This document shows, in pieces, positions 3,119 to 8,088 of a DNA stretch of 39,500 nt (the first letter of the stretch is position 1; every line of letters starts with the position of its first letter). The position numbers and the translations under genes are program-made. Origin of the DNA: Chitinophagaceae bacterium (lineage in GTDB: Bacteria > Bacteroidota > Bacteroidia > Chitinophagales > Chitinophagaceae); assembly GCA_019247775.1 (NCBI GenBank), contig JAFBAN010000231.1, positions 1-39,500 on the forward strand. Direction: 5' to 3'. Below the pieces are notes generated by a model. The model searched no databases. It saw only the letters and a list, made by a program, of their open reading frames with translations, and was not told the DNA's origin.

Positions 3119-4018
3119 ATGAAGATCCCTCCTTACCGGGTACTGCTATTTATTTGCATTAACTGTATGGCGATGGCTGCTTTTGGGCAGCAGGTAGACC
3201 TGTTCAAAATGCAGGACAGTACCAATACCCAAACCGGCGCCAGCCGCGGCGAACCTGTACTCAATACATTTTATTCCACAAGGCTTGTAAACACCCATAC
3301 CGTGGAGATCACGGGGAAAGGCAGTATGGATTTCCGGATCAATCACCGCTTTGCACCGCTTAATTCCGGGCTTTATAATATGTTCGGTCTGGATGCGGCA
3401 TCCATGCGGATGGGTTTCGATTTCGGCATCGCCAATAACCTGATGATCGGTATCGGCCGTTCTACGCTCTACAAGGAGCTCGACTGGTTCATCAAATACC
3501 GGCTGGTCCACCAGCGCGAAGGGGGATCGGTGCCCATATCTGTAGCACTGCTGGCTGCCTGGGCATACCGGACACTCGATTACGATCCTACGCTGAAAGT
3601 GAGCGGCTCTGACCGTACTTATTTCACCGGCGCTTTGCTGATCGGCAGCAAACTGAGTTCAACCACGTCTATCCAGGTATCGCCTACCTATACCCATTAT
3701 AACCGGGTGCTCAATTTCAATACAACCATCAGGGATCTGTTTGCGATCGGACTGCTGGCCAGGCAGCGGGTAAGCCGCCGGATGAGCATCAATGCGGAGT
3801 ATGTGATCCAGACAAATCGGTTTCCCGGCACCTATGATCCGTTGTCTCTGGGCGTAGACATCAATACCGGCGGACACGTATTCCAATTGCATTTTACCAA
3901 TTCTTCCGGTATGAACGAGCACAGCGCCATCCATGAGACCACCGGTTCATGGGGTAATGGCGATGTACGCTGGGGCTTTAATATTTCGAGGATATTCAAT
4001 ATCGGGAGAAGGCACTAA
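3119..4018 (+). CDS. DUF5777 family outer-membrane beta-barrel protein
   Basis: A 299-residue protein. The open frame begins at 3071, overlapping yceI, but the ATG at 3119 directly precedes a signal peptide (MKIPPYRVLLFICINC, cleavage after FGQ) and is chosen. The mature part is rich in alternating aromatic strands and carries the DUF5777-typical start RLVNTHTVEITGKGSMDFRI and later LDWFIKYRLV. The family is a predicted outer-membrane barrel of unknown function. It ends in INIGRRH rather than a classic terminal aromatic residue. A strong hairpin terminator begins 21 nt after its stop. Confidence 0.8.
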   Translation: MKIPPYRVLLFICINCMAMAAFGQQVDLFKMQDSTNTQTGASRGEPVLNTFYSTRLVNTHTVEITGKGSMDFRINHRFAPLNSGLYNMFGLDAASMRMGFDFGIANNLMIGIGRSTLYKELDWFIKYRLVHQREGGSVPISVALLAAWAYRTLDYDPTLKVSGSDRTYFTGALLIGSKLSSTTSIQVSPTYTHYNRVLNFNTTIRDLFAIGLLARQRVSRRMSINAEYVIQTNRFPGTYDPLSLGVDINTGGHVFQLHFTNSSGMNEHSAIHETTGSWGNGDVRWGFNISRIFNIGRRH

Positions 4019-4038
4019 AGTAAGCCTGTAACGCAGTG

Positions 4039-4080
4039 AGGGCCGTCGTTTATATTTTGATATAAGCGCACGGCCCTTTA
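4039..4080 (+). terminator. Terminator after the DUF5777 gene
   Basis: Stem AGGGCCGT (4039-4046) pairs with ACGGCCCT (4070-4077), with an inner TTATAT/ATATAA extension, followed by TTTATATTTG. The short T run merges directly into a -7 promoter element. Confidence 0.75.
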
Positions 4081-4086
4081 TATTTG
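4079..4086 (+). promoter_or_regulatory. -7 promoter element of the methionine synthase leader
   Basis: TATATTTG is an exact match to TAnnTTTG and lies 1 nt past the terminator stem. Transcription would start near 4091, giving a 5' leader of about 255-265 nt before the first methionine synthase gene. Confidence 0.6.
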
Positions 4087-4090
4087 CAGA

Positions 4091-4210
4091 ACCTCAACAG
4101 GCGGATTTGTTTATTGTTCGGCCTGTCGTTCCCGGCGCAAGCAGGGAAGAATCGAACTAATAAACGTTCTGAAGTGGTATTCCCACATTCCCGGCGTTTA
4201 TTGGTTTGTC
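4091..4210 (+). promoter_or_regulatory. Structured 5' leader with mutually exclusive stems
   Basis: Segment 4153-4166 can pair in two ways. Upstream, it pairs with GTTTATTGTTCG at 4109-4120 (12 pairs, one bulged T at 4158). Downstream, it pairs with 4195-4208 (14 consecutive pairs, two of them G-U). Further helices are ACAGGC/GCCTGT (4097-4102 with 4121-4126), TTCCC/GGGAA (4129-4133 with 4144-4148) and GTGG/CCAC (4174-4177 with 4183-4186). The first of these would be pseudoknotted with the upstream pairing. The arrangement resembles the alternative pairing of a riboswitch or attenuator. No B12 box, SAM-I core or other class signature was recognised. Its place before methionine synthase suggests a response to a methionine-cycle or cobalamin metabolite, which is inference. 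Confidence 0.5.
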
Positions 4211-4222
4211 AGGTGTCGTTAA

Positions 4223-4332
4223 CGTGAGACGTGAATCGTCAGGCGTGAAACGTGAGCGGCTCCGCATATCGGAAGCTCTGATGCTAAATTGCTCACGATT
4301 GACGTCTCACGCCTGACGATTCACGTCTCACG
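4223..4332. repeat. Inverted pair of heptamer arrays (CGTGANN family)
   Basis: The left arm 4223-4257 is five 7-nt units of the form CGT(G/C)Ann, for example CGTGAGA, CGTGAAT and CGTCAGG. The right arm 4291-4332 is the reverse complement in the same unit order but with six units; the extra one reads ATTGACG. The arms can form a long hairpin ending 12 nt before the first possible ATG of the methionine synthase gene, so it lies in that gene's leader. A short single-arm relative sits at 13552-13572. Confidence 0.85.
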
Positions 4333-4356
4333 ACCACAACTTAAATGCATAACGCC

Positions 4357-5367
4357 ATGAACATTCGCAAAGAACTCGAAAAAAGGATCCTGGTGATCGA
4401 TGGGGCCATGGGCACAATGATACAGCGGCATAAGCTTGGAGAAGCCGATTACCGCGGTGAGCGTTTCAAAGACTGGCATACAGATGTGAAGGGGAATAAT
4501 GACCTGCTCTGCATCACCCAGCCGGAGATCATCAAAGGCATTCATAAGCAATACCTCGCCGCCGGTGCAGATATCATCGAAACGAATACATTCAGCAGCA
4601 CCGTTATCGCCATGGCCGATTACGATATGCAGTCGCTGGCTTACGAGCTCAATGTAGCAGCTGCACGTTGCGCGCGCGAAGCAGTGAAGGAATTCCTGAC
4701 CGAGAACCCCGCAGCCGCACCCAAATTCGTGGCTGGCGCTATCGGTCCGCTCAATAAAACGCTGAGCCTTTCACCGGATGTGAACAATCCAGGGTACCGT
4801 GCCGTCAGCTTCAATGAAGTGGTGGATGCTTATTATGAGCAGATCCGCGGACTCGTAGACGGCGGGGTCGATCTGCTGCTGATCGAAACGATCTTCGATA
4901 CCCTGAATGCGAAAGCGGCCATCTTCGCCGCAAAAAAATATTTCAGGGCCACCGGTACCGAGCTGCCTGTGATGATCAGCGGAACGATCACCGATGCATC
5001 GGGCCGTACGCTGAGCGGACAAACATTGGAAGCCTTCTACACTTCAGTAATGCATGCCGAACCACTGAGCGTTGGCCTGAACTGCGCGCTGGGCGCCGCG
5101 GAAATGCGAAGTCATATTGAGGAGCTGTCGCAGATCGCATCCTGTTATACATCCGCCTACCCCAATGCAGGCCTGCCCAATGCGATGGGCGAATACGATG
5201 AACAGCCGCACGAGACCGCGCATTTCATCGAAGACTGGGCGAAACAGGGATTTGTAAATATCGTGGGCGGCTGCTGCGGCACTACGCCCGATCATATCAG
5301 GCATATCGCCGCACAGGTAAAAAATCTCACACCAAGACCATTGCCCGTTCTGGAAATGGCTTTATAA
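4357..5367 (+). CDS. metH: Methionine synthase, homocysteine-binding module (split MetH)
   Basis: A 336-residue homocysteine S-methyltransferase domain: [11 protein letters not shown] near the start, then ETNTFSS, LNCALG and VGGCCGTTP. The three zinc-binding cysteines lie in the LNCALG and GGCCG motifs and are all present. They activate homocysteine for methyl transfer from methylcobalamin. In most bacteria this is the N-terminal third of one MetH of about 1,230 residues. Here it ends with its own stop and the remaining modules follow after an 18-nt gap. An ATG at 4345 is also in frame, and counted from there the cysteines are 247, 310 and 311. The ATG at 4357 ([10 protein letters not shown]) fits the family start better. 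Expression is probably controlled through the structured leader upstream. Confidence 0.93.
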
Positions 5368-5385: not shown

Positions 5386-8088
5386 ATGAGTGATCTGACA
5401 ACTATCAAACCTTACCTGCGACTTTCCGGACTGGAGCCATTGGTGATCCGTCCGGAAACCAATTTCGTTAATGTAGGTGAACGGACCAATGTAACCGGCT
5501 CTAAGAAATTCGCAAGGCTGGTACGCGAAGGACAATATGAAGAAGCACTTTCTGTTGCCCGGCAGCAGGTAGAAAGCGGGGCCCAGGTGCTGGACGTGAA
5601 TATGGATGATGCCATGCTCGACGGCGTTTCGGCCATGCGCACTTTCCTCAACCTGGTGCAAAGCGAACCCGATATTGCCCGCATCCCGATCATGATCGAC
5701 AGTTCCAAATTCGAGATCATTGAGGCGGGATTGCAATGCGTGCAGGGTAAATGTATCGTGAACTCGATCTCGATGAAGGAAGGCGAAGCCAAATTCATAG
5801 AGCAGGCATTCACCTGCAAGGCCTACGGCGCCGCAGTGATCGTGATGGCTTTTGACGAGGAAGGACAGGCCGATACCAAGAAAAGGAAAGTGGAGATCTG
5901 TCACCGTGCGTACAAGATCCTTACAGAGAAAGTGCATTTTGCGCCGCAGGACATCATTTTCGATCCGAATATTTTCGCGATCGCCACGGGTATTGAAGAG
6001 CATAACAACTATGCGGTGGATTTTATCGAGGCCACCCGCGAGATCAAACGGCTGATGCCTCTTACCAAGGTAAGCGGCGGGGTCTCCAATGTATCTTTTT
6101 CCTTCCGCGGTAACGACCATGTGCGTGAAGCCATTCATGCCGTATTCCTTTACCATGCCATCAGGGCAGGTATGGACATGGGTATCGTTAACGCAGGACA
6201 GCTGGTGGTATACGATGAGATCGAACCTACCCTGAAACAGCTTTGCGAAGATGTGATCCTGAACCGCAATAACGATGACAACAGCGCCACCGAAAAGCTT
6301 ATCCAGCACGCCGAAACGGTGAAAGCGAAAGGCAAAGTGGAAGTGAAAGATGAAGCCTGGAGAAATGATACGGTTGAAAAAAGATTATCGCATTCGCTTG
6401 TCAATGGCATCACCGATTATATTGAAGCCGATACCGAAGAAGCCCGGCAGAAATACCCCACGCCGCTGGAAGTGATCGAAGGTCCGCTGATGGATGGCAT
6501 GGGCATCGTAGGCGACCTGTTCGGCGCCGGCAAAATGTTCCTGCCGCAGGTAGTGAAAAGTGCAAGGGTGATGAAGAAAAGCGTGGCCATACTCACTCCA
6601 TACATCGAAGCGGAGAAAGAGCAGCGAAAAAAAGCCGGCGGCGCCGGCGACACTTCGGGCGCGGCGAAGATCCTGCTGGCAACGGTAAAGGGCGATGTAC
6701 ATGATATCGGCAAGAACATCGTGGGTGTGGTGCTGGGATGTAATGGTTATGATATCATCGATCTTGGCGTAATGGTGCCTTCGGATAAAATACTTGATAC
6801 CGCACAGAAAGAAAATGCAGCCATCATCGGGCTTAGCGGACTCATCACGCCTTCACTGGATGAAATGGTGCATATTGCCAAAGAAATGAAACGCCGCGGT
6901 ATGGTGCAGCCCCTGTTGATCGGCGGCGCCACCACCTCGCGCATCCATACCGCCGTAAAAATTGCGCCTGAATACGAACAGGGAGTGGTGCATGTGCTGG
7001 ATGCTTCGAGAAGCGTAACTGTTGCCGGTTCGCTGCTGAGTAAAGAACAGAAGACCGGGTTCCTCAGCGATACCCAGTCTGAGTACATTCGTCTGAAAGA
7101 AGGTTTCGATAGTAAAAAATCGGTTAAGAGTTACCTGGCTTATGAAGATGCACTGAAGAACAAAGTGAAGGTAGACTGGGATGCACACCTCACACAAACA
7201 CCTGAATTTACCGGCACCAGGGTTTTCGATGACTTCGATCTTGGTGCGTTACGGCCTTATATCGACTGGAAACCTTTCTTCATTACCTGGGAAATGCATG
7301 GCAATTTTCCGGAGATACTGACCGATAGCGTGGTGGGTAAAGAAGCGACGAAACTGTACAACGATGCCAATGCGCTGCTCGACAAGATCATCGCCGAAAA
7401 ATGGCTGCAGGCCAAAGGCATTATCGGTTTCTGGGAAGCGGCAGGCAATGGCGATGATGTTATGGTGAAGAACGGTGCCGAAAGCGTAAAGCTGTCTTTC
7501 CTGCGGCAGCAGATCAAAAAGGCGCCGGATCAACCCAATCTTTCGCTCGCGGATTTCATAGCGCCTGCATCAACCGGTAAAAAAGATTATATCGGTGCAT
7601 TCGCCGTAACCCTGCACGGCATCGAAACACATATCAAACGGTTTGAAGCAAGCCACGACGACTACAACAAGATCATGCTGCAGGCGCTGGCCGACCGCTT
7701 TGCGGAAGCTTTTGCCGAGGCGTTGCACCAGCAGACCCGGAAAGAATTCTGGGGATATGCAAAAGATGAGCAGCTCAGCAATGCAGACCTGATCAAGGAA
7801 CAATACATCGGTATCCGTCCGGCGCCGGGTTACCCCGCCTGCCCCGATCATACCGAAAAACATAAGCTGTTCGGGTTATTGCAGGCAACAGAGGCGATCG
7901 GCATACAATTGACCGAGAGCCTGGCCATGTATCCCGCATCTTCTGTCTGCGGCTGGTATTTCTCTAACCCGAAAAGTCAGTACTTTGGTGTGGGCAAGAT
8001 CCAGCGCGACCAATTGGAAGACTACGCAAAACGAAAGGAAATGCCGCTGGAAACAGTGGAGCGATGGCTGAGCCCGGTACTGGAATAA
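5386..8088 (+). CDS. metH: Methionine synthase, folate, cobalamin and reactivation modules (split MetH)
   Basis: A 900-residue protein. The pterin-binding (methyltetrahydrofolate) domain spans about residues 20-290 ([22 protein letters not shown]). The cobalamin cap helices cover about 335-415. The B12-binding Rossmann domain follows with DVHDIGKN (437-444); His439 is the expected cobalt ligand. The AdoMet-binding reactivation domain covers about 590-895 and contains [12 protein letters not shown] near 811-822. Together with the preceding gene this covers every domain of cobalamin-dependent MetH, so the pair should form a functional two-subunit enzyme converting homocysteine to methionine. 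No frameshift debris is visible in the 18-nt gap, so the split looks like a natural gene boundary. Two-gene methionine synthases occur in other Bacteroidota (recollection). Confidence 0.95.

Follow-up and report, generated by a model that had tools for sequence, protein, structure and literature searches.

Introduction

The closest described relatives of the RNA element considered here are the SAM-II and SAM-V riboswitches. In an excerpt of the SAM-V structure paper (PMC6061858), U47 holds the adenine of SAM, the triple U20:A48.U9 faces the sulfonium and the next triple is U19:A49.U10, while A18 and A50 pair and A50 contacts the amino-acid end of SAM. Among the SAM-II papers, each represented by excerpts, PMC8494917 gives a metX RNA sequence with GAUUU, UAUUG and GC-U-AAA, PMC1273637 places SAM-II in the Bacteroides group and proposes an OFF switch, and PMC2864571 lists SAM-II long loops for Bacteroidetes.

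We analyzed the window, a 39,500-nucleotide stretch of DNA from a Chitinophagaceae bacterium (contig JAFBAN010000231.1), in which metH is split in two behind a structured leader. As to the SAM-II literature above, we take PMC1273637 to be Corbino et al. 2005 and PMC2864571 to be Weinberg et al. 2010. Judged from its sequence and that of its relatives, the metH leader is probably a divergent SAM-II-type riboswitch with an H-type pseudoknot aptamer and SAM as the probable ligand.

Architecture of the metH leader

Window positions 4097-4166 fold as an H-type pseudoknot, in which the loop of hairpin P1 pairs with a downstream strand to form P2. The features of the locus, in window coordinates, are as follows.

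4079..4086, + strand: -7 promoter element TATATTTG, TAnnTTTG type, read in the sequence and conserved in relatives
4097..4102, + strand: P1 5′ strand ACAGGC, partner of 4121-4126; 5 of 6 P1 pairs changed on both sides among 98 relatives
4104..4108, + strand: GAUUU, counterpart of the third strand in L1 (U8-U10 in SAM-V; residue roles from the excerpt of PMC6061858)
4109..4119, + strand: P2 (pseudoknot) 5′ strand GUUUAUUGUUC, in the P1 loop, pairing with 4154-4165
4121..4126, + strand: P1 3′ strand GCCUGU, from sequence and covariation
4127..4153, + strand: variable linker with a small hairpin, 4129-4133/4144-4148
4154..4165, + strand: P2 3′ strand GAACUAAUAAAC (GAAC-U-AAUAAAC) with bulged U4158 (roles from the excerpt of PMC6061858)
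4167..4194, + strand: loop and upper hairpin of the rival stem P3, from folding
4195..4208, + strand: P3 3′ arm CGUUUAUUGGUUUG, a near-copy of the P2 5′ strand and its rival for 4154-4166 (14 pairs)
4357..5367, + strand: metH part 1, homocysteine S-methyltransferase domain (PF02574; TIGR02082 positions 1-324)
5386..8088, + strand: metH part 2, with pterin-binding, B12-binding and activation domains, above the TIGR02082 and NF007024 cut-offs

P2 has 11 base pairs, and its sole bulge, U4158, sits between G-C and U-A pairs. Pairing of 4109-4120 with 4153-4166 is worth -11.1 kcal/mol and pairing of 4153-4166 with 4195-4208 -14.5 kcal/mol; as hairpins, P1 (4097-4126) reaches -10.9 kcal/mol and P3 (4153-4208) -24.0 kcal/mol. 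Of 200 dinucleotide shuffles of 4080-4260, a stretch that also takes in some of an unrelated repeat, 199 fold less well than the native sequence (z -3.1). P2 is longer than its SAM-V counterpart and may be stable without ligand.

A first-pass annotation of this DNA had described a regulatory leader with mutually exclusive pairings. All the pairings that it named are present at its coordinates, and exclusivity follows from one partner strand being shared by the P3 arm and the P2 5′ strand. The pairing that it had drawn from 4109-4120 is real, yet it is no ordinary stem: it is the P2 helix of the H-type pseudoknot, a fold that the annotation had itself raised as a possibility and that covariation in both P1 and P2 now bears out. 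Its small hairpin at 4129-4133/4144-4148 is likewise there, but the linker that holds it is not conserved in length.

The first part of metH scores below the whole-protein cut-off of TIGR02082, as expected for a part. Its start is more likely at 4357 (MNIRKEL) than at the listed open reading frame start, 4345; most homologues align from residue 2-13 on, mostly about 3-7.

Conservation and covariation of the pseudoknot

Of 147 genomes of the family, 132 gave matches at E<=1 in a DNA search, and the strong matches lay mostly over the P1-loop segment 4097-4126. The N-terminal MetH protein is present in 144 of the 147, which supplied 145 metH places whose upstream regions served as leaders. We defined the core as GAUUUGUUUAUUGUUC with GAACUAAUAAAC 8-70 nt behind it, allowing up to 4 edits in total over 28 nt. 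So defined, it lies upstream of metH at 107 of the 145 places, with 8-70 nt (median 18, P1 3′ strand counted in) between the loop and the P2 3′ strand in these 107 leaders. Two of the 38 leaders that lack the element have less than 50 nt of upstream sequence.

Both helices vary in a compensatory manner. In alignment A1, which holds 98 of the 105 distinct cores and excludes linkers longer than 45 nt, P1 is changed on both sides at 5 of its 6 pairs and 99.5% of P2 cells are paired. Alignment A2, a chosen set of 38 sequences that includes other families, has 97.1% of P2 cells paired and covariation at 5 of 5 P1 pairs. Compensatory changes occur at three P2 pairs in A2: the end pair goes from C-G to U-A in 8 sequences (and is unpaired in 6 of the 38), the second pair from the other end goes from U-A to C-G in 5 and to A-U in 1, and another pair goes from U-A to A-U in 1. 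None of 500 shuffles reached the A2 covariation score, and 5 of 500 reached its number of pairs changed on both sides. Six of the 11 P2 pairs are invariant, hence neutral on pairing.

The motifs GAUUU, UUG and CUAA are each invariant in all 104 equal-length family copies (104 of the 107, three with core insertions excluded), and copy L385, from another family, carries UAUUU in place of GAUUU. Because relatives keep it, the pseudoknot is conserved and covarying far beyond chance. Conservation of the alternative pairing in relatives, on which the first-pass annotation had staked its reading, thus held up at 107 of 145 places, with covariation in P1 and P2.

The motif TAnnTTTG precedes P1 in 93 of the 107 leaders, compared with 2 of 106 for a control stretch; in 88 of the 93 it is 5-11 nt away from P1. 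The -7 element that had been noted just upstream is therefore a shared feature of these leaders, and with this motif conserved before P1, the transcript is expected to have its 5′ end close to that hairpin. A GC-rich hairpin at 4039-4086 (gggccgtcg...cgcacggccc) extends into the metH promoter and may serve as terminator for the DUF5777 beta-barrel gene upstream.

Comparison with SAM-II and SAM-V

SAM-V numbering can be laid over the window element residue by residue. U8-U10 fall at 4106-4108, A18 at 4113, U19 U20 G21 at 4114-4116, C24 at 4119, G43 at 4154, C46 at 4157, U47 at 4158 and A48 A49 at 4159-4160, and the core is identical to SAM-V at every one of these residues. Aligned by eye, SAM-V reads AGGC-AUUUGAACUGUAUUGUGC-GCCU...GCAC-U-AAA and the window element CAGGC-GGAUUUG-UUUAUUGUUC-G-GCCUG...GAAC-U-AAU. 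The exception is position 50, A50 in SAM-V, which is U4161 in the window and U in 104 of 104 equal-length copies; one ligand contact is therefore missing, and the U could pair with A18. The same U is found in L406, one of 15 RNAs of RF01726 above cut-off. In simulated random pseudoknots of the same shape and similar base composition, the core arises by chance at 4.3e-4, and together with UAUUG at 4.5e-5. The earlier statement that the leader has no SAM-II core did not survive this comparison, as the P2 pseudoknot has most of the SAM-II/SAM-V ligand-site residues.

With SAM-V (RF01826, Pelagibacteraceae) the element shares the H-type pseudoknot, the AUUU third strand, UAUUG...C24, G43...C-U-AA with bulged U47 and, in short leaders, a P2 end near the start codon; in both, P1 is joined to the P2 3′ strand by a linker in which a stem may be present. 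In contrast to SAM-V, it is 3 nt shorter between U10 and A18, its P2 is extended to 11 bp, and no Shine-Dalgarno sequence is seen before the AUG in its short leaders; neither covariance model detects the other. A scan of genome contigs for a SAM-V-type residue pattern returned at least 118 stretches, with many Pelagibacteraceae among the matches listed. Rfam labels 11 of 13 tested pattern loci SAM_V, and the other two are chance matches in other bacteria.

Among 119 genomes of the window's class, 14 have SAM-II RNAs of the long-loop type (RF01726) that score above cut-off. The 15 loci listed (L393-L407) belong to other families of the class and lie before metK-like genes, one metK protein having been checked. 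They have in common with our element the bacterial class, an A-rich linker, GAUUUG (11 of 15), CUAA (15 of 15) and, by eye, a place mostly right after a TTTG-type promoter motif. They differ in standing before metK, not metH, in having GCUAAA (14 of 15) and in a P1 that is mostly GUGG/CCAC. SAM-II proper (RF00521) shares the pseudoknot and the GAUUU, UAUUG and CUAA core, and differs at the P2 end. SAM-I (RF00162) resembles the element in location, standing before metH in L176, L177 and L178, and is absent from the window; its fold differs from the SAM-II/V-like pseudoknot.

Because the A50 contact is missing and the models are blind to each other, we do not file the element as SAM-II or SAM-V. 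It is very likely a variant that works like them.

Database and model searches

At gathering score, Rfam has no match anywhere in the window, and at E<=10 the stretch 3950-4400 gives chance hits only, none of them to a riboswitch or SAM family; in particular, the window leader has no Rfam match to a cobalamin or SAM-I riboswitch. The covariance-model check that the first-pass annotation had proposed thus matched no known class, which fits its suggestion of a class not yet described, or a diverged one. Covariance models of the SAM families likewise found nothing at E<=10 in narrow stretches of the other-family copies L247 and L241. RF00521 has no hit above cut-off in 60 family genomes, with sub-threshold matches at E<=1 in 46 of the 60, and RF01726 none in 40, with sub-threshold matches at E<=1 in 25 of the 40. 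The best sub-threshold RF01726 hit, L254, has no downstream same-strand open reading frame of 80 aa.

In the other direction, covariance model R1, built on this element, does not pick up SAM-V at 39 Pelagibacteraceae loci; the 7 hits that it gives at E<=10 fall elsewhere. A loose SAM-II text pattern fits 3 of 30 metK leaders of the family (L424, one of the 30, offers hardly any upstream sequence) and yields no convincing SAM-II RNA there: judged from their letters the three are chance matches, two of them apparently inside the upstream gene. From titles and abstract openings in the open-access literature, we recognized no work on metH leader RNA in this bacterial group. Taken together, the leader is probably an overlooked riboswitch variant that RNA databases do not recognize.

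Association with metH

The covariance model of the element matches in 111 of the 147 family genomes, strongly (E<=6.3e-6) in 109. There are 110 strong hits, one per genome except for two in G049, and 107 of them coincide with the fetched metH leaders. The strong hit in G122 precedes a metH fragment. In G134, the element (L234 455-583) stands before an nhaA gene that the contig end cuts off after 43 codons, and the last 285 nhaA codons (L136 195-1049) stand directly upstream of metH at another contig end; with nhaA pieces at both ends, an nhaA-metH operon under the switch is likely in this genome. The remaining strong hit, G049:C62, sits at a contig end.

The order sample has 298 genomes, 89 of them with a match, and at loci outside the family with E<=0.006 metH is the next gene in 12 of 13; the exception, L243, is a fragment at a contig end that gave no match. 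The class sample gives 14 of 395 genomes, of which 8 belong to the family, 1 is a strong match outside the order (at metH) and 5 are weak matches without metH. The phylum sample gives 9 of 247, with 7 in the family and 2 weak ones without metH. We regard the weak class and phylum hits, as well as L249, L250, L251 and L252, as chance, there being no metH at any of them.

Several relatives in the order (L236, L245, L246, L248) carry a single long fused metH downstream of the element; the switch is therefore independent of the metH split. Three of the 38 leaders without the element (L176, L177, L178) have a SAM-I riboswitch before metH instead.

The P3 stem and the sign of control

Set against 200 mononucleotide shuffles, P3 arm pairing is stronger at p<=0.05 in 67 of the 100 long leaders, with p 0.005 in the window. 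At the edge of P3 there are two compensatory changes (L124, L068). The consensus fold of P3 hairpins is weak, at -0.11 kcal/mol in alignment A3, which comprises 48 of 60 hairpins preselected for a good arm.

In 100 of the 107 leaders with the element, the window among them, the metH match begins 59-455 nt downstream. An AUG directly after the P2 strand is found at six other-family loci of the order (L237-L242) and, within the family, in L155, L163, L111 and L174. Such short leaders imply that the pseudoknot would be the OFF state, hiding the translation start much as proposed for SAM-V.

Long leaders point elsewhere in part of the family. A U-rich run follows immediately after the P3 arm in 24 of 84 leaders, compared with 4/73, 9/59, 0/52 and 4/41 in the next four stretches and 19/321 upstream. 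The 100 leaders contain 70 hairpins with U-runs, of which 24 are P3 (mean -13.0 kcal/mol), 37 lie downstream (mean -5.3 kcal/mol) and 9 are others (mean -12.1 kcal/mol). With U-rich runs behind it, P3 looks like a terminator in some long leaders, and the pseudoknot like an antiterminator, which would imply an ON switch. The window itself has no U-run after P3 and no terminator-like site. The short and long arrangements would thus imply opposite signs of control. A Rho-dependent mechanism, with the pseudoknot laying bare a C-rich P4 loop, is also conceivable.

Two arrangements that would keep the OFF sign in long leaders were considered. One, in which the P3 arm would pair with sequence farther downstream as a second terminator, was rejected, since the downstream U-run hairpins are mostly weak, with a few going down to -16 kcal/mol. 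In a single case, L161 (G088), a second copy of the P2 strand, CUGAACUAAUAUG, lies at the metH start codon, and by eye the P3 arm GGUUCAG could pair with either copy; this arrangement would preserve OFF control despite the long leader.

Discussion

If the leader is a SAM-II-type riboswitch, its parts can be assigned roles by analogy. The GAUUU third strand after P1 would be placed in the major groove of P2, and the bulged U would occupy the adenine-holding site of SAM-V, beside the U:A.U triple that faces the sulfonium charge. Binding of the ligand, most likely SAM, would then stabilize the pseudoknot. We favor SAM because SAM-I takes the same slot in three relatives, the target is metH and the sulfonium triple is conserved. 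Where the AUG lies right behind P2, a stable pseudoknot would block the translation start, a feedback OFF by a product of the methionine cycle. In most of the family, the window included, the downstream loop mimic, the P3 arm, would compete for the P2 3′ strand. The switch would choose between pseudoknot and P3, with P3 acting as a terminator or an anti-repressor stem.

A different ligand for the same pseudoknot is unlikely. Under this reading S-adenosylhomocysteine, methylthioadenosine, methionine or another adenosine compound is bound, position 50 alters recognition of the tail, and long leaders are ON by preventing P3 termination. The A-to-U change at position 50 in 104 of 104 equal-length copies speaks for it, as do the U-rich runs behind P3 (24 of 84) and the share of P3 among U-run hairpins (24 of 70, mean -13.0 kcal/mol); known SAH riboswitches are ON switches. 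Yet the uridines that face the sulfonium, U9 and U20 of SAM-V, are invariant in 104 copies, SAM-I stands in the same slot in three relatives, short leaders with the same aptamer imply OFF, and position 50 is U in L406 too, a SAM-II RNA that scores above cut-off.

We give a similarly small chance to a separate class derived from the SAM-II/V pseudoknot. In such a class, a U50-A18 pair would shape a pocket for, e.g., SAH, and in most of the family the added loop copy would have moved the same gene from translational OFF to transcriptional ON control.

It is quite improbable that the pseudoknot is bound by a protein or the ribosome, in the manner of a ribosomal-protein leader, with no small ligand. 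Both P2 strands are very strongly conserved, even where pairing alone seems needed, and P2 is long enough for stability alone. Strong hits, however, are almost always at metH, the residues match a ligand site one by one, and a metabolite riboswitch takes the slot in three relatives.

An ordinary catalogued riboswitch (SAM-I, cobalamin, SAM-II or SAM-V) is very improbable. metH is a usual target of SAM and cobalamin riboswitches and the core resembles SAM-II/V, but at Rfam thresholds the idea is refuted, with 0 matches in the window and none at E<=10 in 3950-4400. A non-regulatory leader whose two stems are complementary by chance, a reading for which the AU-rich sequence alone could speak, is refuted by the 107 of 145 metH places, the covariation and the promoter placement, and has a negligible chance of being right.

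Should the SAM-II-type riboswitch hold, methionine synthase would be under an RNA sensor that Rfam misses in most sampled members of the family and in some related families. The SAM-II/V superfamily would be widened, showing which ligand contacts can change, and a single gene would allow translational and competing-stem versions of one aptamer to be compared.

Repeats beside the leader

An imperfect inverted repeat of the cgtgagacgtgaatcgtcaggcgtga type occupies 4221-4332, between the leader and metH. In a DNA search of the window's own genome with 4020-4345, nearly all of the 121 BLAST matches listed fall in this dispersed repeat, and we excluded 4221-4332 from further searching. The repeat is a sign of loose spacing to metH in the window. 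In L051, L062, L067 and L074, a recurring GTTGCGTCGCAC(TCTTGTAC)-like stretch lies between the switch and metH, perhaps another dispersed repeat.
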